From contig NC_061080.1 of NCBI RefSeq assembly GCF_021917145.1, positions 10,305,631 through 10,369,630 of the forward strand: a stretch of 64,000 nt of DNA, given 5' to 3'. A model generated the notes under the pieces. The model did not search any database. It was not told the origin of the DNA and saw nothing but the letters and a program-made list of their open reading frames with translations. The DNA is from Hypomesus transpacificus (taxonomy: Eukaryota; Chordata; Actinopteri; Osmeriformes; Osmeridae). The position numbers were made by a program, and so were the translations under genes. Shown piece after piece: positions 1-45,810 of this stretch; positions within the stretch are counted from its first letter, which is position 1, and each line of letters opens with the position of its first letter.

Positions 1-39
1 CAAGTTGGAGGCTGGGGCAGCGGGTAGTGTGTTTTTTCT

Positions 40-693
40 CCCCGGAAAAGGTGTACTTTTTTCGGGGGAGACGTTTGAAATATTCGTGGGCCTCCCGTTT
101 TCGTTCTGCCCCATGGATTTGAACGGGGACAATTTTCCCATATAAGTTAGAGGCGGGGGCAGCGTGCACTGTGGTCGTTTCACCCGGAAACGGTGTTCCC
201 GACTCGGTAGAAGCGTTTGAAATCTTGTTTCGTTCCGTGCGTTTCCCGCGCGCGTGCACGCCCGGGGGTCTCTCATGGGCCTTCTTCCCCCGGTCCATAC
301 CTATCCAAAAAGTCTTCCCCCGAGTCTCTGAGTGCCCGCAAAGTGGAGATGCCTCCACACGAGTCTCAAATTCCTTCCACTTTTGCCGACTGAAAGTGTG
401 CTTGACTTTTTGAATGCTTTGGAGGTGTAAAATTCACAGTTATTCACCCGAACGTGGGATTTGGCTGGGGACACTTTTAAAATTCAAGTTAGACCCGGGG
501 GTAGCGTGGAGAGTGTTTATCTTCCCCGGAAAAGGTGTACTTTTTTCGGGGGAGACGTTTGAAATATTCGTCGGCCTCCCGTGTCCGTTGTGTCCCATGG
601 ATCTCGACGGGGACAATTTTCCCATTTAAGTTAGAGGCGGGGGCAGCGGGGAATTTGTTTTCTTTCCCCGGAAAAGGTGTACTTTTTTCGGGG
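40..693. repeat. 142 bp repeats and dyad-symmetric motifs in the array unit
   Basis: Two adjacent ~142 bp repeats span about 489-772. Each contains an inverted repeat with arms CCCCGGAAAA and TTTTTTCGGGG around the spacer GGTGTAC (524-551 and 666-693). Another copy sits at 40-67 and a diverged copy at 1149-1177. Looser relatives with CACCCGGAAA arms occur near 185 and 809. The set recurs in every unit, offset by 5524 and about 11009-11010. The function is unknown; the dyad plus 7 bp spacer layout resembles a YR core site. Confidence 0.7.
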
Positions 694-1463
694 GAGACGT
701 TTGAAATATTCGTCGGCCTCCCGTGTCCGTTGTGTCCCATGGATCTCGACGGGGACAATTTTCCCATTTAAGTTAGAGGCGGGGGCAGCGTGCACTGTGG
801 TTATTTCACCCGGAAAACGTGTTCCCATTTCGGTAGAAGCGTTTGAAATCTTGTTTCGTTCCGTGCGTCTCCCACGCGCGTGCACGCCCGGGGGTCTCTC
901 CTCGGCCTTCTTCCCCCGGTCCATACCTATCCAAAAAGTCTTCCCCCGAGTCTCTGAGTGCCCGCAAAGTGGAGATGCCTCTACACAAGTCTCAATTCCT
1001 TCCACTTTTGCAGACTGAAAGTGTGCTTGACTTATTGAATGCTGGCAAGATAATAAATTCACAGTTATTCAACGGAACATGGGATTTGGCTGGGGACTCT
1101 TTTATTATTCCAGTTAGACCCGGGGGCACGGAGGGGAGTGTTTATTTTCCCCTGAAAAGGTGTACTTATTTCAGGGGAGACGTTTGAAGTTTTGTTTCGG
1201 TTCCTGTGTCGCGCACGCGCACGTGCGCAAAAGTTGCACACCGGGGTTTTGTTGCCCCGGATCTTACCTATCCAACGAGCCTTTATTCACAAAAATCGGT
1301 TGAACGGCACCGGAGATAACCGTGTTTGACCGTTTTCCCAGCCTTTTCAGCAGTCTCCCAGCTTCGAGATTACAAACTTTACATGGTCGCGGGCCCCAGT
1401 CCACCAGACGACCATCGGCGCGGTTTCAGAAACCTGGTTTTCAGAGACCTGAAAGAACCAGAG

Positions 1464-2520
1464 GGTCTGCCCAGGACCCAGTGCCCGCCCAAGAGGCACC
1501 CCGGTCGGATACCCCCCGGACCCCGAGAGGCCTGGAGGTCAACCATGGACTCAAACATCCAGCCGAGGGTCTGCCCAGGACCCCGTGCCCGCCCAAGAGG
1601 CACCCCGGTCGGATACCCCCGCACCCTGGCGACCCCTGGAGGTCAACCATGGACTCAAACATCCAGCAGGGGGTCTGCCCAGGACCCCCAGGACCCCGTG
1701 CCCGCCCAAGAGGCACCCCGGTCGGATACCCCCGCACCCCGAGACCCCTGGAGGTCAACCATGGACTCAAACATCCAGCAGAGGGTCTGCCCAGGACCCA
1801 GTGCCCGCCCAAGAGGCACCCCGGTCGGATACCCCCGCACCCCGAGACCCCTGGAGGTCAACCATGGACTCAAACATCCAGCAGAGGGTCTGCCCAGGAC
1901 CCAGTGCCCGCCCAAGAGGCACCCCGGTCGGATACCCCCGCACCCTGGCGACCCCTGGAGGTCAACCATGGACTCAAACATCCAGCAGGGGGTCTGCCCA
2001 GGACCCCCAGGACCCCGTGCCCGCCCAAGAGGCACCCCGGTCGGATACCCCCGCACCCCGAGACCCCTGGAGGTCAACCATGGACTCAAACATCCAGCAG
2101 AGGGTCTGCCCAGGACCCAGTGCCCGCCCAAGAGGCACCCCGGTCGGATACCCCCGCACCCCGAGACCCCTGGAGGTCAACCATGGACTCAAACATCCAG
2201 CAGAGGGTCTGCCCAGGACCCAGTGCCCGCCCAAGAGGCACCCCGGTCGGATACCCCCGCACCCTGGCGACCCCTGGAGGTCAAACATGGACTCAAACAT
2301 CCAGCAGAGGGTGTGCCCAGGACCCAGTGCCCGCCCAAGAGGCACCCCGGTCGGATACCCCCGCACCCCGAGACCCCTGGAGGTCAAACATGGACTCAAA
2401 CATCCAGCAGAGGGTCTGCCCAGGACCCAGTGCCCGCCCAAGAGGCACCCCGGTCGGATACCCCCGCACCCTGGCGACCCCTGGAGGTAAAACATGGACT
2501 CAAACATCCAGCAGATGGCA
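1464..2520. repeat. 103-112 bp GC-rich minisatellite (array unit 1)
   Basis: About ten tandem copies. The internal ATGGACTCAAACATCCAG landmark recurs at 1545, 1649, 1761, 1864, 1968, 2080, 2183, 2287, 2390 and 2494, giving periods of 104,112,103,104,112,103,104,103,104. Two unit types alternate, one with CACCCTGGCGACC and one with CACCCCGAGACC, so there is a higher-order repeat. The period is not a multiple of three and the long open frames across it exist in several frames, so I treat them as non-coding. Same array at 6988-8044 and 12474-13530. Confidence 0.95.
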
Positions 2521-2604
2521 GCCTACCCTCTAAAACCAAAGGTCAGTTTCCCCCTCTCCCTCACCTGATCCTCAACTGAGCCGTGGATGTGTGAATAACC
2601 GCCG

Positions 2605-2644
2605 TGGCAGATGGCAATGGAAATGGGTGACCGGGGTTCGTACC
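2605..2644 (+). promoter_or_regulatory. tRNA-like A box and B box pair (pol III promoter-like)
   Basis: TGGCAGATGG at 2605-2614 fits the pol III A box and GGTTCGTACC at 2635-2644 fits the B box. The latter sits inside a GGGG/CCCC stem like a tRNA T-arm. A T-run follows near 2720. No complete cloverleaf is evident, so this is a tRNA-derived remnant or an internal pol III promoter. It repeats at 8129-8168 and 13615-13654. Confidence 0.35.
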
Positions 2645-2920
2645 CCAGAGGCGTCTTACTTTCCCCAATCTAATTTCGGGGGAACACTTTATAAAACGGC
2701 TGAGTAGCCCACTCTCTTAGGCTTTTAACCCCGGTGAATAATATGGGGTGGACGCCGTGGACGCGTGACGTAGGCCCGGGTGTTTGGAGCGTCCAATTAA
2801 ACCCGGCTTAGGGCTAGGGCGCACGTCCACTTTGAGGGAGAGGAGTGGCCGATGTGAGATGTGTATGCTCGGGCTTTGAAACCCACGTAAACACGAAACG
2901 AAATTCATTCAAATGGTTCT

Positions 2921-2928
2921 TTTATTCA
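2921..2928 (-). promoter_or_regulatory. Poly(A) signal overlapping the recombinase stop codon
   Basis: On the minus strand the gene ends TGAATAAA: the TGA stop (2926-2928) shares bases with a canonical AATAAA hexamer (2921-2926). The same arrangement occurs at 8445-8452 and 13931-13938. It implies an almost absent 3' UTR and an independent pol II transcription unit within each array unit. Confidence 0.6.
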
Positions 2929-4245
2929 AACATTTGGACCACACAGCAAAGCAGCGATGTTTTTGCGGGCCTGAACATGCCCAAGAGGTGTCCCAATGCG
3001 GACATAAAACCTCTCTTCGGTAACAGCAGAATGGCACATATGGTGAGCTATCAAATTTCGTTCCGACCCGCTCATGTGGGTCCAATTTAATGTGCTTATG
3101 GAATGGCGTAAGTGATGCAGGGTGATGCCTTGGTGGCCCAAGCTATGCATCAACTTCCGGACGTTTGTGGATAGCCCATTCATGCAAGATCCGCTGCGGG
3201 AAAAGAACAGTCTCTGGTCGGTGTTCCGAGGGTAACCGGGAAGCTTGGTGGATGCCTCTACAAAGCGAGAGAGCCATCCATGCTCTTCCCCCGTGAGAGC
3301 TAAGACGGCAGGGCCATGATATTGCGCCGTCTTGTGCTCCGGCACTGAAACAAGAAACATATCCTCCAGGCGCTCGGCGGAGGCAAAGTTGTCGCGGGTC
3401 ATCTCCAAGAAAACCCCGCGCCTGGCGCCGTTGAATATTGTAACCTGCAGGATGATGGCAGCTGCAGCCCTGTTAGCGTTCCGATGCGTAGCAGCCCTCT
3501 CCAAAGCCAGCAGTAGCTCGGGTATGCACCTATCCAAATCGGTGCCAATGGCACGGATCTCCTCACTCCTTAGCAGGCCCGTCTGCTGGGAATGGGTGAT
3601 GGTCAGCCGGTGTCTACGAACGTTGACACGGTTGTCTCTTGAAAGCTTGCTCAATTTCATGAGCATGGGACGGAGGACCTTTTTTGAAACGGCAAGGCCG
3701 GTCGGCTTATAATCTTTAACCCACTTCACAAACGCAGTAACGTCACAGAGGTACGATTTGAGGGTACTCGCCTTCAGACCTCGGGTGGACAGGTCGCTGT
3801 ACCAACTTTGAACTGCTTCTGGTTCTTCAAAGTTCTTAATTTGACCCATAAAGTCTATGATTCGATTAACGGTGCTTTTGACGTTTTCCATCTGTCTTTT
3901 CGAAGCTTGCGGGATCACCAGGTAAGCGTGGTAAGCGCTCACAATGGTCCCAGTGTCTGTGTCTTCGTCGGTTGAGCTGCAGCTGGAACTGGGGCTGGAA
4001 CTGGACATGTTCTGGTGGGTCTCCGGACCGGTGGGTACAGCGTTGTGGGTATTTGAGCACCCCGGCTTGAGGTGTTGATCGTCCTCGGCGGCATCCTTGG
4101 ATGTCAGTCCTCTGTAAGCATTGTCGTAATCGTGGGTGCCAACTTTCAATTTGTGCACCTTTGTAAGATGTCTGTCTAGTCGGGCGAAAGGTTTCCCAGA
4201 GCAGAGAATGCAGGGTTTCACTACCTTCTTCCTTGAAACGTCCAT
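2926..4245 (-). CDS. Tyrosine recombinase with N-terminal zinc finger, Crypton-like (array copy 1)
   Basis: A 439-residue ORF starting at the ATG at 4245; the frame is open further upstream but only with a TTG. Residues ~10-31 form a C2H2-like finger (CILC...HLTKVH). A Ser/Asp-rich linker (~80-100) follows, then an alpha-helical core-binding region (~105-230) and a YR catalytic domain. Visible catalytic residues are Arg ~275 (GARRG), Lys ~305 (EHKTA), H-x-x-R ~377-380 (LHHLRHS), His ~405 (MCHSAV) and the nucleophile Tyr ~414 (RFYVR), so the active site looks complete. YRs cut and rejoin DNA through a 3'-phosphotyrosine. Zinc finger plus YR with no reverse transcriptase fits Crypton-type DNA transposons; a YR stripped from another element class is possible. 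The TGA stop overlaps an AATAAA signal. Confidence 0.85.
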   Translation of the reverse strand: MDVSRKKVVKPCILCSGKPFARLDRHLTKVHKLKVGTHDYDNAYRGLTSKDAAEDDQHLKPGCSNTHNAVPTGPETHQNMSSSSPSSSCSSTDEDTDTGTIVSAYHAYLVIPQASKRQMENVKSTVNRIIDFMGQIKNFEEPEAVQSWYSDLSTRGLKASTLKSYLCDVTAFVKWVKDYKPTGLAVSKKVLRPMLMKLSKLSRDNRVNVRRHRLTITHSQQTGLLRSEEIRAIGTDLDRCIPELLLALERAATHRNANRAAAAIILQVTIFNGARRGVFLEMTRDNFASAERLEDMFLVSVPEHKTAQYHGPAVLALTGEEHGWLSRFVEASTKLPGYPRNTDQRLFFSRSGSCMNGLSTNVRKLMHSLGHQGITLHHLRHSISTLNWTHMSGSERNLIAHHMCHSAVTEERFYVRIGTPLGHVQARKNIAALLCGPNV

Positions 4246-4479
4246 GATGTGCGGCAAGCATTGAGGTCGGTCGGCATCAATCAAGGCATAATTGCCGATT
4301 GGCAGGAAGGTGTTTTTCCATGGGAAGCGTGTACTGGGCGGGGACAGTGTTGATCCATGGTAGGGGAGTCAATGGAGGGACGCCGAGAGGCAAGGAGTGG
4401 TACTTCCCCCAAAACCAAAGCCCACAAACAGTCACCCTCCTGTGGACTCAAAAGGGATGACATGTCGGTGAAAACAACC

Positions 4480-5125
4480 AAAACCTAAGTCCATTTTGAA
4501 TGGGAGTCAATGGGCGGAGTACCAGAGGCACAAACTTTTAAGCCTCCAAAACCTAAGTCCATTTTGAATGGAAGTCAATGGGCGGATGCCCAGGTGCACA
4601 AAATTCTAAGCCTTCAAAACCTAAGTCCATTTTGAATGGAAGTCAATGGGCGGATGCCCAGGTGCACAAAATTCTAAGCCTTCAAAACCTAAGTCCATTT
4701 TGAATGGAAGTCAATGGGCGGATGCCCAGGTGCACAAAATTCTAAGCCTTCAAAACCTAAGTCCATTTTGAATGGAAGTCAATGGGCGGATGCCCAGGTG
4801 CACAAAATTCTAAGCCTTCAAAACCTAAGTCCATTTTGAATGGAAGTCAATGGGCGGATGCCCAGGTGCACAAAATTCTAAGCCTTCAAAACCTAAGTCC
4901 ATTTTGAATGGAAGTCAATGGGCGGATGCCCAGGTGCACAAAATTCTAAGCCTTCAAAACCTAAGTCCATTTTGAATGGAAGTCAATGGGCGGATGCCCA
5001 GGTGCACAAAATTCTAAGCCTTCAAAACCTAAGTCCATTTTGAATGGAAGTCAATGGGCGGATGCCCAGGTGCACAAAATTCTAAGCCTTCAAAACCTAA
5101 GTCCATTTTGAATGGAAGTCAATTG
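4480..5125. repeat. 68 bp minisatellite upstream of the recombinase (unit 1)
   Basis: About nine tandem copies of a 68 bp unit containing AAAACCTAAGTCCATTTTG and GGCGGATGCCCAGGTG; GGCGGATGCC recurs every 68 bp from 4581 to 5057. The first copies are diverged. It starts ~235 bp upstream of the recombinase ATG, where promoter elements would be expected. No long ORF is supported. Confidence 0.95.
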
Positions 5126-5169
5126 GATGACCAGGGGCACATATTTCTTAAAGTTGCATTTAATGGGTT

Positions 5170-5450
5170 TTAACACAGGGGGTGGGCTTAATAGTGGGTG
5201 CACAGGGCCCCCCGGTGAATGGGTGATGGGGGACACCCCCCCCGGAGGTGTGCAGTCCCCCCTTGGAGAGGGGGTCCCCGGGGAGGCCGGGAGGGTGTGG
5301 GGGGGTCCCCTTGGATCCCAAAAGTGGGTGTGCAGGGTGCGGCCGGAGTGGGGGTCCCTTGGGAGCCCGGGGATGGGTGCCCGGGGACGTCCCGGAGTGG
5401 TGGTCCCCTGGGAGGCCGGGGATGACCGTGTGAGGGTGCGCTGGAGGTGT
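5170..5450. repeat. G-run/C-run rich segment of the array unit
   Basis: Low-complexity stretch with many GGGG and CCCC runs arranged as imperfect short repeats. It also occurs at 10655-10935 and 16180-16460. Open frames on both strands are compositional; no conserved domain is visible. Such runs could form G-quadruplexes. Confidence 0.6.
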
Positions 5451-6987
5451 GGAAAGGTGAAAAAGGGTAAAATTCGCCGTTTCTCGCCCGAGCGTGGGAT
5501 TTGGCTGGGGACACTTTTATAATTCAAGTTGGAGGCTGGGGCAGCGGGTAGTGTGTTTTTTCTCCCCGGAAAAGGTGTACTTTTTTCGGGGGAGACGTTT
5601 GAAATATTCGTGGGCCTCCCGTTTTCGTTCTGCCCCATGGATTTGAACGGGGACAATTTTCCCATATAAGTTAGAGGCGGGGGCAGCGTGCACTGTGGTC
5701 GTTTCACCCGGAAACGGTGTTCCCGACTCGGTAGAAGCGTTTGAAATCTTGTTTCGTTCCGTGCGTTTCCCGCGCGCGTGCACGCCCGGGGGTCTCTCAT
5801 GGGCCTTCTTCCCCCGGTCCATACCTATCCAAAAAGTCTTCCCCCGAGTCTCTGAGTGCCCGCAAAGTGGAGATGCCTCCACACGAGTCTCAAATTCCTT
5901 CCACTTTTGCCGACTGAAAGTGTGCTTGACTTTTTGAATGCTTTGGAGGTGTAAAATTCACAGTTATTCACCCGAACGTGGGATTTGGCTGGGGACACTT
6001 TTAAAATTCAAGTTAGACCCGGGGGTAGCGTGGAGAGTGTTTATCTTCCCCGGAAAAGGTGTACTTTTTTCGGGGGAGACGTTTGAAATATTCGTCGGCC
6101 TCCCGTGTCCGTTGTGTCCCATGGATCTCGACGGGGACAATTTTCCCATTTAAGTTAGAGGCGGGGGCAGCGGGGAATTTGTTTTCTTTCCCCGGAAAAG
6201 GTGTACTTTTTTCGGGGGAGACGTTTGAAATATTCGTCGGCCTCCCGTGTCCGTTGTGTCCCATGGATCTCGACGGGGACAATTTTCCCATTTAAGTTAG
6301 AGGCGGGGGCAGCGTGCACTGTGGTTATTTCACCCGGAAAACGTGTTCCCATTTCGGTAGAAGCGTTTGAAATCTTGTTTCGTTCCGTGCGTCTCCCACG
6401 CGCGTGCACGCCCGGGGGTCTCTCCTCGGCCTTCTTCCCCCGGTCCATACCTATCCAAAAAGTCTTCCCCCGAGTCTCTGAGTGCCCGCAAAGTGGAGAT
6501 GCCTCTACACAAGTCTCAATTCCTTCCACTTTTGCAGACTGAAAGTGTGCTTGACTTATTGAATGCTGGCAAGATAATAAATTCACAGTTATTCAACGGA
6601 ACATGGGATTTGGCTGGGGACTCTTTTATTATTCCAGTTAGACCCGGGGGCACGGAGGGGAGTGTTTATTTTCCCCTGAAAAGGTGTACTTATTTCAGGG
6701 GAGACGTTTGAAGTTTTGTTTCGGTTCCTGTGTCGCGCACGCGCACGTGCGCAAAAGTTGCACACCGGGGTTTTGTTGCCCCGGATCTTACCTATCCAAC
6801 GAGCCTTTATTCACAAAAATCGGTTGAACGGCACCGGAGATAACCGTGTTTGACCGTTTTCCCAGCCTTTTCAGCAGTCTCCCAGCTTCGAGATTACAAA
6901 CTTTACATGGTCGCGGGCCCCAGTCCACCAGACGACCATCGGCGCGGTTTCAGAAACCTGGTTTTCAGAGACCTGAAAGAACCAGAG

Positions 6988-8044
6988 GGTCTGCCCAGGA
7001 CCCAGTGCCCGCCCAAGAGGCACCCCGGTCGGATACCCCCCGGACCCCGAGAGGCCTGGAGGTCAACCATGGACTCAAACATCCAGCCGAGGGTCTGCCC
7101 AGGACCCCGTGCCCGCCCAAGAGGCACCCCGGTCGGATACCCCCGCACCCTGGCGACCCCTGGAGGTCAACCATGGACTCAAACATCCAGCAGGGGGTCT
7201 GCCCAGGACCCCCAGGACCCCGTGCCCGCCCAAGAGGCACCCCGGTCGGATACCCCCGCACCCCGAGACCCCTGGAGGTCAACCATGGACTCAAACATCC
7301 AGCAGAGGGTCTGCCCAGGACCCAGTGCCCGCCCAAGAGGCACCCCGGTCGGATACCCCCGCACCCCGAGACCCCTGGAGGTCAACCATGGACTCAAACA
7401 TCCAGCAGAGGGTCTGCCCAGGACCCAGTGCCCGCCCAAGAGGCACCCCGGTCGGATACCCCCGCACCCTGGCGACCCCTGGAGGTCAACCATGGACTCA
7501 AACATCCAGCAGGGGGTCTGCCCAGGACCCCCAGGACCCCGTGCCCGCCCAAGAGGCACCCCGGTCGGATACCCCCGCACCCCGAGACCCCTGGAGGTCA
7601 ACCATGGACTCAAACATCCAGCAGAGGGTCTGCCCAGGACCCAGTGCCCGCCCAAGAGGCACCCCGGTCGGATACCCCCGCACCCCGAGACCCCTGGAGG
7701 TCAACCATGGACTCAAACATCCAGCAGAGGGTCTGCCCAGGACCCAGTGCCCGCCCAAGAGGCACCCCGGTCGGATACCCCCGCACCCTGGCGACCCCTG
7801 GAGGTCAAACATGGACTCAAACATCCAGCAGAGGGTGTGCCCAGGACCCAGTGCCCGCCCAAGAGGCACCCCGGTCGGATACCCCCGCACCCCGAGACCC
7901 CTGGAGGTCAAACATGGACTCAAACATCCAGCAGAGGGTCTGCCCAGGACCCAGTGCCCGCCCAAGAGGCACCCCGGTCGGATACCCCCGCACCCTGGCG
8001 ACCCCTGGAGGTAAAACATGGACTCAAACATCCAGCAGATGGCA
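6988..8044. repeat. 103-112 bp GC-rich minisatellite (array unit 2)
   Basis: Same copy order and alternating unit types as in unit 1, offset by 5524 bp. Preservation of the full internal order suggests the 5.5 kb unit was amplified as a block after the minisatellite formed. Confidence 0.95.
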
Positions 8045-8449
8045 GCCTACCCTCTAAAACCAAAGGTCAGTTTCCCCCTCTCCCTCACCTGATCCTCAAC
8101 TGAGCCGTGGATGTGTGAATAACCGCCGTGGCAGATGGCAATGGAAATGGGTGACCGGGGTTCGTACCCCAGAGGCGTCTTACTTTCCCCAATCTAATTT
8201 CGGGGGAACACTTTATAAAACGGCTGAGTAGCCCACTCTCTTAGGCTTTTAACCCCGGTGAATAATATGGGGTGGACGCCGTGGACGCGTGACGTAGGCC
8301 CGGGTGTTTGGAGCGTCCAATTAAACCCGGCTTAGGGCTAGGGCGCACGTCCACTTTGAGGGAGAGGAGTGGCCGATGTGAGATGTGTATGCTCGGGCTT
8401 TGAAACCCACGTAAACACGAAACGAAATTCATTCAAATGGTTCTTTTAT

Positions 8450-9769
8450 TCAAACATTTGGACCACACAGCAAAGCAGCGATGTTTTTGCGGGCCTGAAC
8501 ATGCCCAAGAGGTGTCCCAATGCGGACATAAAACCTCTCTTCGGTAACAGCAGAATGGCACATATGGTGAGCTATCAAATTTCGTTCCGACCCGCTCATG
8601 TGGGTCCAATTTAATGTGCTTATGGAATGGCGTAAGTGATGCAGGGTGATGCCTTGGTGGCCCAAGCTATGCATCAACTTCCGGACGTTTGTGGATAGCC
8701 CATTCATGCAAGATCCGCTGCGGGAAAAGAACAGTCTCTGGTCGGTGTTCCGAGGGTAACCGGGAAGCTTGGTGGATGCCTCTACAAAGCGAGAGAGCCA
8801 TCCATGCTCTTCCCCCGTGAGAGCTAAGACGGCAGGGCCATGATATTGCGCCGTCTTGTGCTCCGGCACTGAAACAAGAAACATATCCTCCAGGCGCTCG
8901 GCGGAGGCAAAGTTGTCGCGGGTCATCTCCAAGAAAACCCCGCGCCTGGCGCCGTTGAATATTGTAACCTGCAGGATGATGGCAGCTGCAGCCCTGTTAG
9001 CGTTCCGATGCGTAGCAGCCCTCTCCAAAGCCAGCAGTAGCTCGGGTATGCACCTATCCAAATCGGTGCCAATGGCACGGATCTCCTCACTCCTTAGCAG
9101 GCCCGTCTGCTGGGAATGGGTGATGGTCAGCCGGTGTCTACGAACGTTGACACGGTTGTCTCTTGAAAGCTTGCTCAATTTCATGAGCATGGGACGGAGG
9201 ACCTTTTTTGAAACGGCAAGGCCGGTCGGCTTATAATCTTTAACCCACTTCACAAACGCAGTAACGTCACAGAGGTACGATTTGAGGGTACTCGCCTTCA
9301 GACCTCGGGTGGACAGGTCGCTGTACCAACTTTGAACTGCTTCTGGTTCTTCAAAGTTCTTAATTTGACCCATAAAGTCTATGATTCGATTAACGGTGCT
9401 TTTGACGTTTTCCATCTGTCTTTTCGAAGCTTGCGGGATCACCAGGTAAGCGTGGTAAGCGCTCACAATGGTCCCAGTGTCTGTGTCTTCGTCGGTTGAG
9501 CTGCAGCTGGAACTGGGGCTGGAACTGGACATGTTCTGGTGGGTCTCCGGACCGGTGGGTACAGCGTTGTGGGTATTTGAGCACCCCGGCTTGAGGTGTT
9601 GATCGTCCTCGGCGGCATCCTTGGATGTCAGTCCTCTGTAAGCATTGTCGTAATCGTGGGTGCCAACTTTCAATTTGTGCACCTTTGTAAGATGTCTGTC
9701 TAGTCGGGCGAAAGGTTTCCCAGAGCAGAGAATGCAGGGTTTCACTACCTTCTTCCTTGAAACGTCCAT
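8450..9769 (-). CDS. Tyrosine recombinase with N-terminal zinc finger (array copy 2)
   Basis: Predicted protein identical to the copy in unit 1: the same 439-residue ORF from the ATG at 9769, N-terminal CxxC...HxxxxH finger and complete R-K-HxxR-H-Y catalytic set. It lies between the 103-112 bp minisatellite (downstream of its 3' end) and the 68 bp minisatellite (upstream of its start). Retention of an open frame across all copies argues either for very recent amplification or for conversion that keeps the frame intact. Confidence 0.85.
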   Translation of the reverse strand: MDVSRKKVVKPCILCSGKPFARLDRHLTKVHKLKVGTHDYDNAYRGLTSKDAAEDDQHLKPGCSNTHNAVPTGPETHQNMSSSSPSSSCSSTDEDTDTGTIVSAYHAYLVIPQASKRQMENVKSTVNRIIDFMGQIKNFEEPEAVQSWYSDLSTRGLKASTLKSYLCDVTAFVKWVKDYKPTGLAVSKKVLRPMLMKLSKLSRDNRVNVRRHRLTITHSQQTGLLRSEEIRAIGTDLDRCIPELLLALERAATHRNANRAAAAIILQVTIFNGARRGVFLEMTRDNFASAERLEDMFLVSVPEHKTAQYHGPAVLALTGEEHGWLSRFVEASTKLPGYPRNTDQRLFFSRSGSCMNGLSTNVRKLMHSLGHQGITLHHLRHSISTLNWTHMSGSERNLIAHHMCHSAVTEERFYVRIGTPLGHVQARKNIAALLCGPNV

Positions 9770-10003
9770 GATGTGCGGCAAGCATTGAGGTCGGTCGGCA
9801 TCAATCAAGGCATAATTGCCGATTGGCAGGAAGGTGTTTTTCCATGGGAAGCGTGTACTGGGCGGGGACAGTGTTGATCCATGGTAGGGGAGTCAATGGA
9901 GGGACGCCGAGAGGCAAGGAGTGGTACTTCCCCCAAAACCAAAGCCCACAAACAGTCACCCTCCTGTGGACTCAAAAGGGATGACATGTCGGTGAAAACA
10001 ACC

Positions 10004-10610
10004 AAAACCTAAGTCCATTTTGAATGGGAGTCAATGGGCGGAGTACCAGAGGCACAAACTTTTAAGCCTCCAAAACCTAAGTCCATTTTGAATGGAAGTC
10101 AATGGGCGGATTTTGAATGGAAGTCCAGCCCAGGTGCACAAAATTCTAAGCCTTCAAAACCTAAGTCCATTTTGAATGGAAGTCAATGGGCGGATGCCCA
10201 GGTGCACAAAATTCTAAGCCTTCAAAACCTAAGTCCATTTTGAATGGAAGTCAATGGGCGGATGCCCAGGTGCACAAAATTCTAAGCCTTCAAAACCTAA
10301 GTCCATTTTGAATGGAAGTCAATGGGCGGATGCCCAGGTGCACAAAATTCTAAGCCTTCAAAACCTAAGTCCATTTTGAATGGAAGTCAATGGGCGGATG
10401 CCCAGGTGCACAAAATTCTAAGCCTTCAAAACCTAAGTCCATTTTGAATGGAAGTCAATGGGCGGATGCCCAGGTGCACAAAATTCTAAGCCAAAATTCT
10501 AAGCCTTCAAAACCTAAGTCCATTTTGAATGGAAGTCAATGGGCGGATGCCCAGGTGCACAAAATTCTAAGCCTTCAAAACCTAAGTCCATTTTGAATGG
10601 AAGTCAATTG
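10004..10610. repeat. 68 bp minisatellite upstream of the recombinase (unit 2)
   Basis: Same array as in unit 1 but about 40 bp shorter, with rearranged junctions near 10108-10130 and 10490-10505 (partial copies fused out of register). This accounts for the shorter 5485 bp period of this unit. Confidence 0.93.
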
Positions 10611-12473
10611 GATGACCAGGGGCACATATTTCTTAAAGTTGCATTTAATGGGTTTTAACACAGGGGGTGGGCTTAATAGTGGGTGCACAGGGCCCCCCGG
10701 TGAATGGGTGATGGGGGACACCCCCCCCGGAGGTGTGCAGTCCCCCCTTGGAGAGGGGGTCCCCGGGGAGGCCGGGAGGGTGTGGGGGGGTCCCCTTGGA
10801 TCCCAAAAGTGGGTGTGCAGGGTGCGGCCGGAGTGGGGGTCCCTTGGGAGCCCGGGGATGGGTGCCCGGGGACGTCCCGGAGTGGTGGTCCCCTGGGAGG
10901 CCGGGGATGACCGTGTGAGGGTGCGCTGGAGGTGTGGAAAGGTGAAAAAGGGTAAAATTCGCCGTTTCTCGCCCGAGCGTGGGATTTGGCTGGGGACACT
11001 TTTATAATTCAAGTTGGAGGCTGGGGCAGCGGGTAGTGTGTTTTTTCTCCCCGGAAAAGGTGTACTTTTTTCGGGGGAGACGTTTGAAATATTCGTGGGC
11101 CTCCCGTTTTCGTTCTGCCCCATGGATTTGAACGGGGACAATTTTCCCATATAAGTTAGAGGCGGGGGCAGCGTGCACTGTGGTCGTTTCACCCGGAAAC
11201 GGTGTTCCCGACTCGGTAGAAGCGTTTGAAATCTTGTTTCGTTCCGTGCGTTTCCCGCGCGCGTGCACGCCCGGGGGTCTCTCATGGGCCTTCTTCCCCC
11301 GGTCCATACCTATCCAAAAAGTCTTCCCCCGAGTCTCTGAGTGCCCGCAAAGTGGAGATGCCTCCACACGAGTCTCAAATTCCTTCCACTTTTGCCGACT
11401 GAAAGTGTGCTTGACTTTTTGAATGCTTTGGAGGTGTAAAATTCACAGTTATTCACCCGAACGTGGGATTTGGCTGGGGACACTTTTAAAATTCAAGTTA
11501 GACCCGGGGGGTAGCGTGGAGAGTGTTTATCTTCCCCGGAAAAGGTGTACTTTTTTCGGGGGAGACGTTTGAAATATTCGTCGGCCTCCCGTGTCCGTTG
11601 TGTCCCATGGATCTCGACGGGGACAATTTTCCCATTTAAGTTAGAGGCGGGGGCAGCGGGGAATTTGTTTTCTTTCCCCGGAAAAGGTGTACTTTTTTCG
11701 GGGGAGACGTTTGAAATATTCGTCGGCCTCCCGTGTCCGTTGTGTCCCATGGATCTCGACGGGGACAATTTTCCCATTTAAGTTAGAGGCGGGGGCAGCG
11801 TGCACTGTGGTTATTTCACCCGGAAAACGTGTTCCCATTTCGGTAGAAGCGTTTGAAATCTTGTTTCGTTCCGTGCGTCTCCCACGCGCGTGCACGCCCG
11901 GGGGTCTCTCCTCGGCCTTCTTCCCCCGGTCCATACCTATCCAAAAAGTCTTCCCCCGAGTCTCTGAGTGCCCGCAAAGTGGAGATGCCTCTACACAAGT
12001 CTCAATTCCTTCCACTTTTGCAGACTGAAAGTGTGCTTGACTTATTGAATGCTGGCAAGATAATAAATTCACAGTTATTCAACGGAACATGGGATTTGGC
12101 TGGGGACTCTTTTATTATTCCAGTTAGACCCGGGGGCACGGAGGGGAGTGTTTATTTTCCCCTGAAAAGGTGTACTTATTTCAGGGGAGACGTTTGAAGT
12201 TTTGTTTCGGTTCCTGTGTCGCGCACGCGCACGTGCGCAAAAGTTGCACACCGGGGTTTTGTTGCCCCGGATCTTACCTATCCAACGAGCCTTTATTCAC
12301 AAAAATCGGTTGAACGGCACCGGAGATAACCGTGTTTGACCGTTTTCCCAGCCTTTTCAGCAGTCTCCCAGCTTCGAGATTACAAACTTTACATGGTCGC
12401 GGGCCCCAGTCCACCAGACGACCATCGGCGCGGTTTCAGAAACCTGGTTTTCAGAGACCTGAAAGAACCAGAG

Positions 12474-13530
12474 GGTCTGCCCAGGACCCAGTGCCCGCCC
12501 AAGAGGCACCCCGGTCGGATACCCCCCGGACCCCGAGAGGCCTGGAGGTCAACCATGGACTCAAACATCCAGCCGAGGGTCTGCCCAGGACCCCGTGCCC
12601 GCCCAAGAGGCACCCCGGTCGGATACCCCCGCACCCTGGCGACCCCTGGAGGTCAACCATGGACTCAAACATCCAGCAGGGGGTCTGCCCAGGACCCCCA
12701 GGACCCCGTGCCCGCCCAAGAGGCACCCCGGTCGGATACCCCCGCACCCCGAGACCCCTGGAGGTCAACCATGGACTCAAACATCCAGCAGAGGGTCTGC
12801 CCAGGACCCAGTGCCCGCCCAAGAGGCACCCCGGTCGGATACCCCCGCACCCCGAGACCCCTGGAGGTCAACCATGGACTCAAACATCCAGCAGAGGGTC
12901 TGCCCAGGACCCAGTGCCCGCCCAAGAGGCACCCCGGTCGGATACCCCCGCACCCTGGCGACCCCTGGAGGTCAACCATGGACTCAAACATCCAGCAGGG
13001 GGTCTGCCCAGGACCCCCAGGACCCCGTGCCCGCCCAAGAGGCACCCCGGTCGGATACCCCCGCACCCCGAGACCCCTGGAGGTCAACCATGGACTCAAA
13101 CATCCAGCAGAGGGTCTGCCCAGGACCCAGTGCCCGCCCAAGAGGCACCCCGGTCGGATACCCCCGCACCCCGAGACCCCTGGAGGTCAACCATGGACTC
13201 AAACATCCAGCAGAGGGTCTGCCCAGGACCCAGTGCCCGCCCAAGAGGCACCCCGGTCGGATACCCCCGCACCCTGGCGACCCCTGGAGGTCAAACATGG
13301 ACTCAAACATCCAGCAGAGGGTGTGCCCAGGACCCAGTGCCCGCCCAAGAGGCACCCCGGTCGGATACCCCCGCACCCCGAGACCCCTGGAGGTCAAACA
13401 TGGACTCAAACATCCAGCAGAGGGTCTGCCCAGGACCCAGTGCCCGCCCAAGAGGCACCCCGGTCGGATACCCCCGCACCCTGGCGACCCCTGGAGGTAA
13501 AACATGGACTCAAACATCCAGCAGATGGCA
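12474..13530. repeat. 103-112 bp GC-rich minisatellite (array unit 3)
   Basis: Third copy of the same minisatellite, offset by 11010 bp from the first, with the same alternating arrangement. Confidence 0.95.
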
Positions 13531-13935
13531 GCCTACCCTCTAAAACCAAAGGTCAGTTTCCCCCTCTCCCTCACCTGATCCTCAACTGAGCCGTGGATGT
13601 GTGAATAACCGCCGTGGCAGATGGCAATGGAAATGGGTGACCGGGGTTCGTACCCCAGAGGCGTCTTACTTTCCCCAATCTAATTTCGGGGGAACACTTT
13701 ATAAAACGGCTGAGTAGCCCACTCTCTTAGGCTTTTAACCCCGGTGAATAATATGGGGTGGACGCCGTGGACGCGTGACGTAGGCCCGGGTGTTTGGAGC
13801 GTCCAATTAAACCCGGCTTAGGGCTAGGGCGCACGTCCACTTTGAGGGAGAGGAGTGGCCGATGTGAGATGTGTATGCTCGGGCTTTGAAACCCACGTAA
13901 ACACGAAACGAAATTCATTCAAATGGTTCTTTTAT

Positions 13936-15255
13936 TCAAACATTTGGACCACACAGCAAAGCAGCGATGTTTTTGCGGGCCTGAACATGCCCAAGAGGTG
14001 TCCCAATGCGGACATAAAACCTCTCTTCGGTAACAGCAGAATGGCACATATGGTGAGCTATCAAATTTCGTTCCGACCCGCTCATGTGGGTCCAATTTAA
14101 TGTGCTTATGGAATGGCGTAAGTGATGCAGGGTGATGCCTTGGTGGCCCAAGCTATGCATCAACTTCCGGACGTTTGTGGATAGCCCATTCATGCAAGAT
14201 CCGCTGCGGGAAAAGAACAGTCTCTGGTCGGTGTTCCGAGGGTAACCGGGAAGCTTGGTGGATGCCTCTACAAAGCGAGAGAGCCATCCATGCTCTTCCC
14301 CCGTGAGAGCTAAGACGGCAGGGCCATGATATTGCGCCGTCTTGTGCTCCGGCACTGAAACAAGAAACATATCCTCCAGGCGCTCGGCGGAGGCAAAGTT
14401 GTCGCGGGTCATCTCCAAGAAAACCCCGCGCCTGGCGCCGTTGAATATTGTAACCTGCAGGATGATGGCAGCTGCAGCCCTGTTAGCGTTCCGATGCGTA
14501 GCAGCCCTCTCCAAAGCCAGCAGTAGCTCGGGTATGCACCTATCCAAATCGGTGCCAATGGCACGGATCTCCTCACTCCTTAGCAGGCCCGTCTGCTGGG
14601 AATGGGTGATGGTCAGCCGGTGTCTACGAACGTTGACACGGTTGTCTCTTGAAAGCTTGCTCAATTTCATGAGCATGGGACGGAGGACCTTTTTTGAAAC
14701 GGCAAGGCCGGTCGGCTTATAATCTTTAACCCACTTCACAAACGCAGTAACGTCACAGAGGTACGATTTGAGGGTACTCGCCTTCAGACCTCGGGTGGAC
14801 AGGTCGCTGTACCAACTTTGAACTGCTTCTGGTTCTTCAAAGTTCTTAATTTGACCCATAAAGTCTATGATTCGATTAACGGTGCTTTTGACGTTTTCCA
14901 TCTGTCTTTTCGAAGCTTGCGGGATCACCAGGTAAGCGTGGTAAGCGCTCACAATGGTCCCAGTGTCTGTGTCTTCGTCGGTTGAGCTGCAGCTGGAACT
15001 GGGGCTGGAACTGGACATGTTCTGGTGGGTCTCCGGACCGGTGGGTACAGCGTTGTGGGTATTTGAGCACCCCGGCTTGAGGTGTTGATCGTCCTCGGCG
15101 GCATCCTTGGATGTCAGTCCTCTGTAAGCATTGTCGTAATCGTGGGTGCCAACTTTCAATTTGTGCACCTTTGTAAGATGTCTGTCTAGTCGGGCGAAAG
15201 GTTTCCCAGAGCAGAGAATGCAGGGTTTCACTACCTTCTTCCTTGAAACGTCCAT
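13936..15255 (-). CDS. Tyrosine recombinase with N-terminal zinc finger (array copy 3)
   Basis: Third open copy, again predicted to give the same 439-residue protein starting at the ATG at 15255, with stop codon and poly(A) signal overlapping at the 3' end. Context is the same as in units 1 and 2. The fourth unit is cut by the assembly gap before its recombinase gene. Confidence 0.85.
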   Translation of the reverse strand: MDVSRKKVVKPCILCSGKPFARLDRHLTKVHKLKVGTHDYDNAYRGLTSKDAAEDDQHLKPGCSNTHNAVPTGPETHQNMSSSSPSSSCSSTDEDTDTGTIVSAYHAYLVIPQASKRQMENVKSTVNRIIDFMGQIKNFEEPEAVQSWYSDLSTRGLKASTLKSYLCDVTAFVKWVKDYKPTGLAVSKKVLRPMLMKLSKLSRDNRVNVRRHRLTITHSQQTGLLRSEEIRAIGTDLDRCIPELLLALERAATHRNANRAAAAIILQVTIFNGARRGVFLEMTRDNFASAERLEDMFLVSVPEHKTAQYHGPAVLALTGEEHGWLSRFVEASTKLPGYPRNTDQRLFFSRSGSCMNGLSTNVRKLMHSLGHQGITLHHLRHSISTLNWTHMSGSERNLIAHHMCHSAVTEERFYVRIGTPLGHVQARKNIAALLCGPNV

Positions 15256-15489
15256 GATGTGCGGCAAGCATTGAGGTCGGTCGGCATCAATCAAGGCATA
15301 ATTGCCGATTGGCAGGAAGGTGTTTTTCCATGGGAAGCGTGTACTGGGCGGGGACAGTGTTGATCCATGGTAGGGGAGTCAATGGAGGGACGCCGAGAGG
15401 CAAGGAGTGGTACTTCCCCCAAAACCAAAGCCCACAAACAGTCACCCTCCTGTGGACTCAAAAGGGATGACATGTCGGTGAAAACAACC

Positions 15490-16135
15490 AAAACCTAAGT
15501 CCATTTTGAATGGGAGTCAATGGGCGGAGTACCAGAGGCACAAACTTTTAAGCCTCCAAAACCTAAGTCCATTTTGAATGGAAGTCAATGGGCGGATGCC
15601 CAGGTGCACAAAATTCTAAGCCTCCAAAACCTAAGTCCATTTTGAATGGAAGTCAATGGGCGGATGCCCAGGTGCACAAAATTCTAAGCCTTCAAAACCT
15701 AAGTCCATTTTGAATGGAAGTCAATGGGCGGATGCCCAGGTGCACAAAATTCTAAGCCTTCAAAACCTAAGTCCATTTTGAATGGAAGTCAATGGGCGGA
15801 TGCCCAGGTGCACAAAATTCTAAGCCTTCAAAACCTAAGTCCATTTTGAATGGAAGTCAATGGGCGGATGCCCAGGTGCACAAAATTCTAAGCCTTCAAA
15901 ACCTAAGTCCATTTTGAATGGAAGTCAATGGGCGGATGCCCAGGTGCACAAAATTCTAAGCCTTCAAAACCTAAGTCCATTTTGAATGGAAGTCAATGGG
16001 CGGATGCCCAGGTGCACAAAATTCTAAGCCTCCAAAACCTAAGTCCATTTTGAATGGAAGTCAATGGGCGGATGCCCAGGTGCACAAAATTCTAAGCCTT
16101 CAAAACCTAAGTCCATTTTGAATGGAAGTCAATTG
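15490..16135. repeat. 68 bp minisatellite upstream of the recombinase (unit 3)
   Basis: Same length as in unit 1, with scattered single-base variants (for example CCTCCAAAAC instead of CCTTCAAAAC near 15620 and 16030). Confidence 0.93.
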
Positions 16136-17367
16136 GATGACCAGGGGCACATATTTCTTAAAGTTGCATTTAATGGGTTTTAACACAGGGGGTGGGCTTA
16201 ATAGTGGGTGCACAGGGCCCCCCGGTGAATGGGTGATGGGGGACACCCCCCCCGGAGGTGTGCAGTCCCCCCTTGGAGAGGGGGTCCCCGGGGAGGCCGG
16301 GAGGGTGTGGGGGGGTCCCCTTGGATCCCAAAAGTGGGTGTGCAGGGTGCGGCCGGAGTGGGGGTCCCTTGGGAGCCCGGGGATGGGTGCCCGGGGACGT
16401 CCCGGAGTGGTGGTCCCCTGGGAGGCCGGGGATGACCGTGTGAGGGTGCGCTGGAGGTGTGGAAAGGTGAAAAAGGGTAAAATTCGCCGTTTCTCGCCCG
16501 AGCGTGGGATTTGGCTGGGGACACTTTTATAATTCAAGTTGGAGGCTGGGGCAGCGGGTAGTGTGTTTTTTCTCCCCGGAAAAGGTGTACTTTTTTCGGG
16601 GGAGACGTTTGAAATATTCGTGGGCCTCCCGTTTTCGTTCTGCCCCATGGATTTGAACGGGGACAATTTTCCCATATAAGTTAGAGGCGGGGGCAGCGTG
16701 CACTGTGGTCGTTTCACCCGGAAACGGTGTTCCCGACTCGGTAGAAGCGTTTGAAATCTTGTTTCGTTCCGTGCGTTTCCCGCGCGCGTGCACGCCCGGG
16801 GGTCTCTCATGGGCCTTCTTCCCCCGGTCCATACCTATCCAAAAAGTCTTCCCCCGAGTCTCTGAGTGCCCGCAAAGTGGAGATGCCTCCACACGAGTCT
16901 CAAATTCCTTCCACTTTTGCCGACTGAAAGTGTGCTTGACTTTTTGAATGCTTTGGAGGTGTAAAATTCACAGTTATTCACCCGAACGTGGGATTTGGCT
17001 GGGGACACTTTTAAAATTCAAGTTAGACCCGGGGGTAGCGTGGAGAGTGTTTATCTTCCCCGGAAAAGGTGTACTTTTTTCGGGGGAGACGTTTGAAATA
17101 TTCGTCGGCCTCCCGTGTCCGTTGTGTCCCATGGATCTCGACGGGGACAATTTTCCCATTTAAGTTAGAGGCGGGGGCAGCGGGGAATTTGTTTTCTTTC
17201 CCCGGAAAAGGTGTACTTTTTTCGGGGGAGACGTTTGAAATATTCGTCGGCCTCCCGTGTCCGTTGTGTCCCATGGATCTCGACGGGGACAATTTTCCCA
17301 TTTAAGTTAGAGGCGGGGGCAGCGTGCACTGTGGTTATTTCACCCGGAAAACGTGTTCCCATTTCGG

Positions 17368-17467
17368 NNNNNNNNNNNNNNNNNNNNNNNNNNNNNNNNN
17401 NNNNNNNNNNNNNNNNNNNNNNNNNNNNNNNNNNNNNNNNNNNNNNNNNNNNNNNNNNNNNNNNNNN
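17368..17467. other. Assembly gap of 100 N
   Basis: Exactly 100 Ns, the conventional size for a gap of unknown length. It breaks both the 5.5 kb array (fourth unit) and the downstream part of the CUB-like gene, so the right end of the array is not seen. Confidence 0.99.
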
Positions 17468-19520: not shown

Positions 19521-25409
<5,889 letters not shown>

Positions 25410-44836: not shown

Positions 44837-45574
44837 TTAATGATATACTGCACACATCGACAGAACCTGGGCTAAGTATGCTAACAGTAGCCAGCCCAGG
44901 ATGTGAATGTCCAATGTCGACATTACATTTCCACTATCAATGCATATTGGTCCAAATTCAAGACAATCCTGAATACAAGACGACTCCACCCTTTTTAATA
45001 CTTTTTTTGTGGGAAAACAGTTTTTGAAGAAGAAAATAACGTTTTCAATAATAAATACCGGCACTTGTAGCTTCTCTCTGGAGTCTGAATGCAAACTTGG
45101 TCCTAGTTGTTGTGCAAGTCCATTACGCTGAATCATTCTTCTACACCAGCCATAGCTTGCGTTGAAATCGGTGGTCGGTATGTTTAGCTCTTTGGCTATT
45201 TCCAAAGCCTTCAGTTGAATGACGGCTCTGGTAATTGGCATTCCATCATCCTGTTTTTCAGTTAGGTAGTCGCACACTCGCCTGTCAATCTCTTGGAAGC
45301 GGCCGCTCTGAGGACCGCGGTCAGATTTTCTCTGACTGTTCGCATTTTTAAGACGGTCTTTTTGGGTTCGCCATCTTCGAACATTACATTCCGTGACACC
45401 ATGTTCCTTAGCTGCTCGAGAATTGTCGGATGACTCCGCTGCATTAATCACCACGATCTTAAAACTTGCGTCATAACTCCTCCTCGGTTGTTGGTTAACC
45501 TGACCTACTTTTGAGACACTGTGTTCAAGACGATCACTGCTGTGTTCAAGACGATCACTGCTGTGTCTTTCCAT
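44837..45574 (-). CDS. HTH protein related to CENP-B/Tc5-type transposase N-termini, no DDE domain
   Basis: 245-residue ORF from an ATG. It starts with a duplicated SSDRLEH motif. Residues ~33-75 (SYDASFKIVVINAAE...VRRWRTQKDRL) look like a Brinker-type/Psq-like HTH and ~97-155 (RRVCDYLTEKQDDG...GWCRRMIQRNGL) like the CENP-B/Tc5 HTH. In pogo/Tigger-type transposases a DDE nuclease follows; here the C-terminal 80 residues are unrelated and hydrophobic at the end, so catalytic function is absent. It may be a domesticated DNA-binding fragment, a truncated transposon or an exon of a larger gene. It lies just upstream of ZNF-B on the same strand. Confidence 0.6.
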   Translation of the reverse strand: MERHSSDRLEHSSDRLEHSVSKVGQVNQQPRRSYDASFKIVVINAAESSDNSRAAKEHGVTECNVRRWRTQKDRLKNANSQRKSDRGPQSGRFQEIDRRVCDYLTEKQDDGMPITRAVIQLKALEIAKELNIPTTDFNASYGWCRRMIQRNGLAQQLGPSLHSDSREKLQVPVFIIENVIFFFKNCFPTKKVLKRVESSCIQDCLEFGPICIDSGNVMSTLDIHILGWLLLAYLAQVLSMCAVYH

Positions 45575-45810
45575 CTTTCAGGCCGATGGCACTGTACGCT
45601 ATGTAAATACCGGTACTTGGCGTCATCAGTCTAAGGAGCAAATATGAGACGAACCCACTGTTTCAGAATTATAGGAAGAAAGCCACGTCTTGTATTGGGA
45701 CCAAAACGGTACATATCTGACCTAAATAGCAACACTGTATCTGCAACTAGATACAGAGTTGAAATTACCACAACATCTACTACTACCTACTAACGTTGTC
45801 TAGTTTTACC

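Follow-up and report, generated by a model that had tools for sequence, protein, structure and literature searches.

Tandem array at the start of the window

The window analysed here is a 64,000-nucleotide stretch of the Hypomesus transpacificus genome (NCBI RefSeq assembly GCF_021917145.1, contig NC_061080.1, positions 10,305,631 to 10,369,630, forward strand), and its positions 1-17367 were filled by head-to-tail units of about 5.5 kb that carry an open reading frame (ORF) for a putative tyrosine recombinase (YR). Self-comparison gave periods of 5524 and 5486 bp, and the units were near-identical apart from length changes in their minisatellites. The sequence TTAGGGCTAGGG was found at positions 2808, 8332 and 13818. 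The long plus-strand ORFs of the unit fell inside a 103-bp minisatellite. An imperfect inverted repeat spans the junction between units, and its evidence is weak because 2 of 60 simulated sequences reached the same level. Since a scaffold gap adjoins the array, its placement beside the following gene region is uncertain. No matches were obtained by an Rfam scan of the window and 14 fetched pieces, or by a tRNA scan of the window. The coordinates are collected in Table 1, in which a slash marks the boundary between units.

Table 1. Features of the recombinase-bearing array in the window
Feature	Position	Strand	Remark
Element copy truncated by the window edge, right-hand part only	1..2807		continues leftward in the genome; array starts at C21:10280545
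Complete element copy 1, 5524 bp, bounded by tandem junctions CCCGGC/TTAGGGCTAGGG	2808..8331	-	boundary as given by the bounded C97 copy together with the six left ends
Complete element copy 2, 5486 bp	8332..13817	-
Element copy 3, truncated by assembly gap	13818..17367	-	YR gene whole
YR ORF, 439 aa	2926..4245	-	C2H2-like motif, SAM-like core-binding region, R/K/HxxR/H/Y residues
YR ORF, identical 439 aa	8450..9769	-
YR ORF, identical 439 aa	13936..15255	-
AATAAA poly(A) signal overlapping the YR stop codon	2921..2926	-	TTTATT on the plus strand
Tandem junction with TTAGGGCTAGGG at 2808-2819	2802..2819	+	telomeric hexamer common to insertion ends and array junctions (att-like core)
Imperfect inverted repeat across the junction, arms 2757-2776 / 2811-2830, 15/20 matching	2757..2830		possible recombinase arm sites
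103-bp minisatellite within the unit	1459..2515		also 6983-8039, 12469-13525
68-bp minisatellite	4479..5123		also about 10003-10608 and 15489-16133
100-N scaffold gap closing the array	17368..17467

The recombinase gene

The known residue scheme of tyrosine recombinases was used for reading the motifs of the predicted protein. The catalytic-type residues G-A-R-R (273-276), K305, H377-x-x-R380, H405 and Y414 were present, and the ordered pattern of R (R275/R276), K, HxxR, H/W and Tyr occurred with the usual spacing, the distance from H to Y being nine positions. An N-terminal CxxC...H....H motif (C12, C15, H26, H31) was recognized by eye. The open frame comprised 480 codons, against a longest stop-free stretch of 352 in 300 first-order simulated sequences. 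Profile matches were weak: E 5.7e-4 to Pfam Phage_int_SAM_1, 5.6e-5 to NCBIfam XerA and 1.1e-4 to XerD (all three below the curated cut-offs), and 0.0096 and 0.016 to PHROG integrases. Motif residues and profile matches taken together suggest a YR, and a PDB sequence search with the protein gave no YR match. Three other ORFs of the first unit were profile-tested, the longest of which sits in the 103-bp minisatellite, and they yielded no credible family match and no reverse transcriptase (RT), DDE, capsid or helicase (the test did not cover every ORF).

An earlier note on this DNA had described a tandem 5.5-kb array with identical 439-residue recombinases, a full catalytic residue set, an own poly(A) signal and no RT, DDE or capsid-like ORF. 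The array and the identity were borne out by self-comparison and comparison of the ORFs, the residues and the signal were found in place, and the last point agreed with the ORFs tested, which are not every ORF of the unit.

Copies in the genome and their variation

The source genome (437 Mb in 376 contigs, labelled C1-C376) was searched for further copies. All 96 protein matches scored, out of 137 candidates, were stop-free and 100% identical to the YR. The exact tandem junction occurred 121 times and the right end 122 times, with 78 of the 122 right-end matches on the single contig C52. False duplication of a single copy during assembly could be suspected, as the window array stops at a 100-N gap and the arrays on C11 and at C21:5.97 Mb adjoin N runs. 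Such an artefact is, however, hardly credible, since the varying unit spacing (4.75 to 9.5 kb across the genome) argues against a copied assembly block, and locus-specific single-nucleotide differences and the 78 matches on one contig speak against it as well.

ORF copies were counted as read when at least 90% of the gene was covered (n=41), and 38 of them had the YR in frame with ATG and without an inner stop. A 1-bp frameshift was present at C21:10297516 and a lost start codon at C31:759322, while the remaining copy, on C52, was incomplete only from the edge of the fetched piece. The poly(A) signal was missing in one of the 33 copies read there, the edge copy of C68. E94K and A290S were found in all seven C52 copies that had been fetched for being outside the identical set, and Y149F (C376) and S153C (C328) were seen in 81-base probes, outside the 13 distinct ORF substitutions counted. 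Six of these 13 were synonymous and seven were nonsynonymous or start loss. Inner array units showed 2 nonsynonymous and 5 synonymous changes (p 0.015 against 0.74 expected nonsynonymous), and edge units together with the short C31 array showed 5 nonsynonymous (or start loss) and 1 synonymous.

The variation would be explained by homogenisation of whole units with decay at the edges, together with weak evidence of protein constraint. Strong purifying selection on the YR was considered and dropped; the changes overall were not clearly different from neutral. The earlier claim that every copy keeps an intact recombinase nearly held, with one frameshift, one start loss and one incompletely read copy. 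As to the frame retention that had been taken as a sign of function or very recent spread, the near-identity of the copies is largely a matter of homogenised whole units.

An ordinary macrosatellite under unequal exchange, with the YR as a fossil ORF carried along and recently homogenised, would also give whole-unit homogeneity, and the non-coding segments (1216 bp compared) were indeed about as uniform as the ORF; many of the changes fall in edge units, and the share of nonsynonymous changes or start loss among the 13 would suit it too. This explanation is nevertheless improbable in view of the 38 intact frames, and of the terminus at six sites with different flanks and the copy bounded on both sides that are described below.

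More divergent copies were also observed. The C97 and C376 copies resembled the array type closely in the ORF probes and the DNA next to them, whereas their distal 5' part diverged by 9 to 23%, and C328 was tandem across at least 5.6 kb probed. The C376-type 5' region had relatives on C8, C152, C161 and C211, therefore a more varied family exists. In several cases these relatives were spaced about 13.5-14.4 kb, perhaps a longer version of the element.

Bounded copy and ends of the element

A lone copy of 4766 bp was found on C97, bounded by GGG/TTAGGGCTAGGG and CCCGGC/TTAGGGTTAGGG. Its left junction reads CATACCT-GGG/TTAGGGCTAGGGCGC and its right junction AATTAAACCCGGC/TTAGGGTTAGGGTTAGGGTTAGG, followed by satellite. 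Each end corresponds to one half of the tandem junction, CCCGGC/TTAGGGCTAGGG, and both lie at GGG^TTA of a telomeric tract. GTCCAATTAAACCCGGC followed by TTAGGGTTAGG was present at C97 only, once in the genome, the 122 right-end matches being the 121 tandem junctions plus C97. Two related copies of the flank, on C82 and at C97:64 kb, have the sequence CATACCTGG/CCGAG, in which both the hexamer and the element are missing. The dispersed single copies for which a genome-wide check had been proposed are in this way represented by the C97 copy with its junctions, and 121 of the 122 right ends are tandem.

Among 44 junctions in the pieces fetched, with overlaps counted, 38 had CCCGGC before TTAGGGCTAGGG, and the other six were left ends. 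Array edges were mapped where they were formed by neither N gaps nor contig ends. The same unit base ended the arrays at C21 (10280545) and C69 (269559), and the other mapped edges lay at unit positions 2775 (C68), 2717 (C52), 3541 (C31) and near 5275 (C69, right side). Before the pattern search, the mapped edges were already clustered: four of the six fell in an 89-bp stretch of the unit (simulation, 0.00024; 0.007 when the identical two count as a single event), which suggested a defined terminus. Two further loci were probed: at C21:5981098 the edge coincided to within one base and adjoined a different flank, and at C201 no edge was present in the pieces read.

The left terminus, GGG/TTAGGGCTAGGGCGC, was then represented by the exact string GGGTTAGGGCTAGGGCGCACGTCC, which occurred six times in the 437 Mb: on C21 twice (5.98 Mb and 10.28 Mb), C69, C97, C328 and C376, with different preceding DNA. 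The left flanks at C21:10.28 Mb and C69 belonged to one satellite family and were broken 157 bp apart, and the others were mutually unmatched over 239 bp except for a 51-bp, 78% match between C97 and C21:10.28 Mb. It is possible that the C69 left edge arose from the C21:10.28 Mb edge through a 157-bp deletion; the other four left ends are flanked otherwise. One fixed attachment site for all array edges was ruled out by the left edge of C68 and the right edges of C52, C31 and C69.

There are thus a left terminus at six places, a copy on C97 with both ends, 121 junctions with the same core, and intact YR genes with the expected residues. Judged from these sequences, the unit boundary is the element boundary, and one terminus at six sites with different flanks, together with the copy bounded on two sides, indicates mobility.

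Flanks and telomeric setting

Several flanks were satellites with interstitial telomeric repeats. The satellite adjoining several arrays has TTAGGG tracts, often arranged as other sequence followed by GGG(TTAGGG)n, and some of its copies were found at 10-94 kb of C27, whose start is (CCCTAA)n (40 of 123 candidate places scored). The neighbouring satellite accordingly lies near a telomeric contig start, the array positions themselves being unanchored. At the right edge of C69 the unit was followed by (TTGGGG)n(TTAGGG)n. On C328 and C376 the distance between contig start and left end was 25 and 62 kb, and C376 is flanked by a satellite that is 86-87% similar to one on C21. Element-free related copies were found for five of the six left sites (C21:5.98 Mb, C97, C376 in an adjacent repeat, C21:10.28 Mb, and C69 in the C21 flank; C328 was not searched).

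Three further observations concern these flanks. The satellite of loci L024, L033 and L022 is 1.0-2.1 kb long, with TTAGGG tracts, and occurs on many contigs and near the telomeric C27 start. A lone tandem junction occurs at C7:7253125, with a copy of the flanking satellite some 8 kb away. Left of the array on C21 (L016:3461-6517), long minus-strand ORFs have a telomeric tract and a 135-bp satellite in their vicinity, and the three scanned (549, 301 and 183 aa) gave no Pfam match up to E 0.1.

Proposed origin of the arrays

The 5.5-kb unit is probably, by a modest preponderance, a transposon with YR as its only enzyme, which targets the telomeric hexamer and has grown into head-to-tail macrosatellites. 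The element would insert in the hexamer at GGG^TTAGGG, and would have done so several times within satellite containing interstitial telomeric repeats. Insertion would leave the hexamer core at the ends, where further copies could join. The joins would be made by the element's own YR through a circular form, arrays might grow by repeated integration or exchange, and unequal exchange may then homogenise the array. As tandem junctions keep the hexamer of the insertion junction, action of the recombinase on the array is mechanistically possible. Its role in insertion is suggested by its family and by analogy with TATE elements and telomere-inserting nimaviruses, and the YR may still be active. 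A fuller reading, for which the chance falls a little short of even, is that this vertebrate element recognises the hexamer, loads its own copies at the junctions, and builds and remodels subtelomeric macrosatellites, as a self-assembling recombinase-encoded satellite. The recombinase-encoded macrosatellite of the earlier note was partly borne out: by its six-site terminus and the two-side-bounded copy the unit behaves as a mobile element encoding a YR, rather than as a satellite with a chance ORF, whereas the action of the YR on its array and the release of circles would be possibilities. No family match supports membership among the Cryptons, which the note had mentioned.

The chief rival is capture of the unit by telomere-tipped ends, in which broken or eroded ends, once tipped with a hexamer, would use the element's internal TTAGGGCTAGGG to copy it or to recombine with it, the YR being a passenger or having another role. 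Yeast Y' elements spread in this recombination manner. The flanking satellites with interstitial telomeric repeats and the repeats beyond the C69 right edge would fit such a history, and the left joins resemble repair at exposed GG. This rival is unlikely, though to be taken seriously: the C97 copy has a tandem-junction half at either end, and an intact YR with a hexamer target has direct precedents.

Several observations weigh against a hexamer-targeting transposon. Each of the six left ends has exactly one hexamer before CTAGGG and no telomeric repeats further left, although insertion at random positions of a tract should leave more than one; this is the strongest point for the Y'-like rival, as a single telomere addition and a subsequent invasion would produce it. 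The left ends of C328 and C376 near contig starts, and the satellite beside C376, shifted the balance slightly toward that rival. GG was present at the break in four of the five known left sites, which also fits telomere-type break repair. In the part consulted of a published account, interstitial telomeric repeats formed at broken DNA have GG or GGG in register at the break (PMC7215372). The C68 left edge lies at unit position 2775, away from the hexamer. On the right side, C52, C31 and C69 have their edges at other unit positions, and the pieces read on C328 and C376 stop short of a right edge. A right end of the expected form occurs singly in the genome, and the C97 copy is known from both ends and five 81-base probes. 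The empty copies related to C97 are without any telomeric tract, so that an earlier tract at the C97 site is assumed. For the protein, the overall share of nonsynonymous changes or start loss (7/13) gave 0.094 against neutral and the comparison of inner with edge units 0.10 (Fisher), the viral_contigs search gave no YR relative, and single-sequence structure prediction was uninformative (pLDDT 31.7).

If the transposon reading is right, it would show in concrete terms how a mobile element can turn into a macrosatellite: one site-specific insertion could seed a long array because the insertion core survives at unit junctions. YR elements specific for the hexamer, of the kind described in kinetoplastids and crustacean viruses, might then also exist in a vertebrate, where they would help to shape satellite-rich chromosome regions. 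The defined core lends itself to a simple recombination assay.

Other features of the window

Other mobile-element and zinc-finger frames were observed in the window. An open LINE-type ORF of 1098 codons without stops, encoding an endonuclease domain and a reverse transcriptase domain (RVT_1 E 2.4e-32), was located at 20950-24246 (+), and an open Tc1-type transposase frame of 358 codons (HTH_Tnp_Tc3_2, DDE_3) at 50286-51362 (+). On the minus strand, several long ORFs at 33390-58966 read as C2H2 zinc-finger proteins (one profile-tested), and an ORF at 44837-45577 had Tc5 and Brinker-type DNA-binding domains.

Comparison with known systems

Yeast Y' elements are tandem subtelomeric units of 5-7 kb, delimited by telomere motifs, which encode a helicase and spread by homologous recombination. 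The fish unit resembles them in size, tandem arrangement, telomere-motif borders and an encoded DNA-processing enzyme, and differs in that no helicase match was found in the ORFs tested. Coding macrosatellites such as D4Z4/DUX4 and RS447/USP17 also have an ORF in each tandem unit, but they are not transposable elements with defined insertion ends.

TATE elements of kinetoplastids, in the part of their description consulted, encode a YR and form tandem clusters at GGG^TTA of telomeric hexamers (PMC6681497). The fish unit shares the YR, the hexamer position and the tandem clusters, as seen at both C97 ends, the six left ends and the 121 junctions, with the exceptions of the C68 left edge and the C52, C31 and C69 right edges. 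TATE adds, by the same partial account, RT/RNase H and a gag-like ORF, whereas in the fish unit, from a vertebrate host, only the YR was found, with no RT in the ORFs tested. Telomere-specific YRs of endogenous nimaviruses are described, in the portion of the source consulted, as having C2H2 and SAM-like domains, insertion in telomeric repeats and possible concatemers (PMC10871703). The fish YR may be alike in its finger motif (by eye), its SAM-like region (by weak match) and its proposed telomeric target, but those YRs belong to large crustacean viral genomes and the fish element is 5.5 kb.

Cryptons are of very low copy in most hosts and yet exceed 2,700 copies in medaka, according to the sections consulted (PMC3212892). 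They are likewise elements with YR as the only enzyme found and without RT (the three other fish-unit ORFs being without match), while the telomeric target and macrosatellites are absent from the Crypton account as consulted (PMC3212892). A profile search of the fish YR up to E 1 showed no match to DUF3504, a domesticated derivative, and the element is not labelled here as a pure Crypton. In open-licence literature on YRs or Cryptons with satellites or telomeres, at the level of titles and abstract starts, no such vertebrate element was found. In its telomeric target the fish element is closer to TATE and the telomere-targeting nimavirus YRs than to Crypton.

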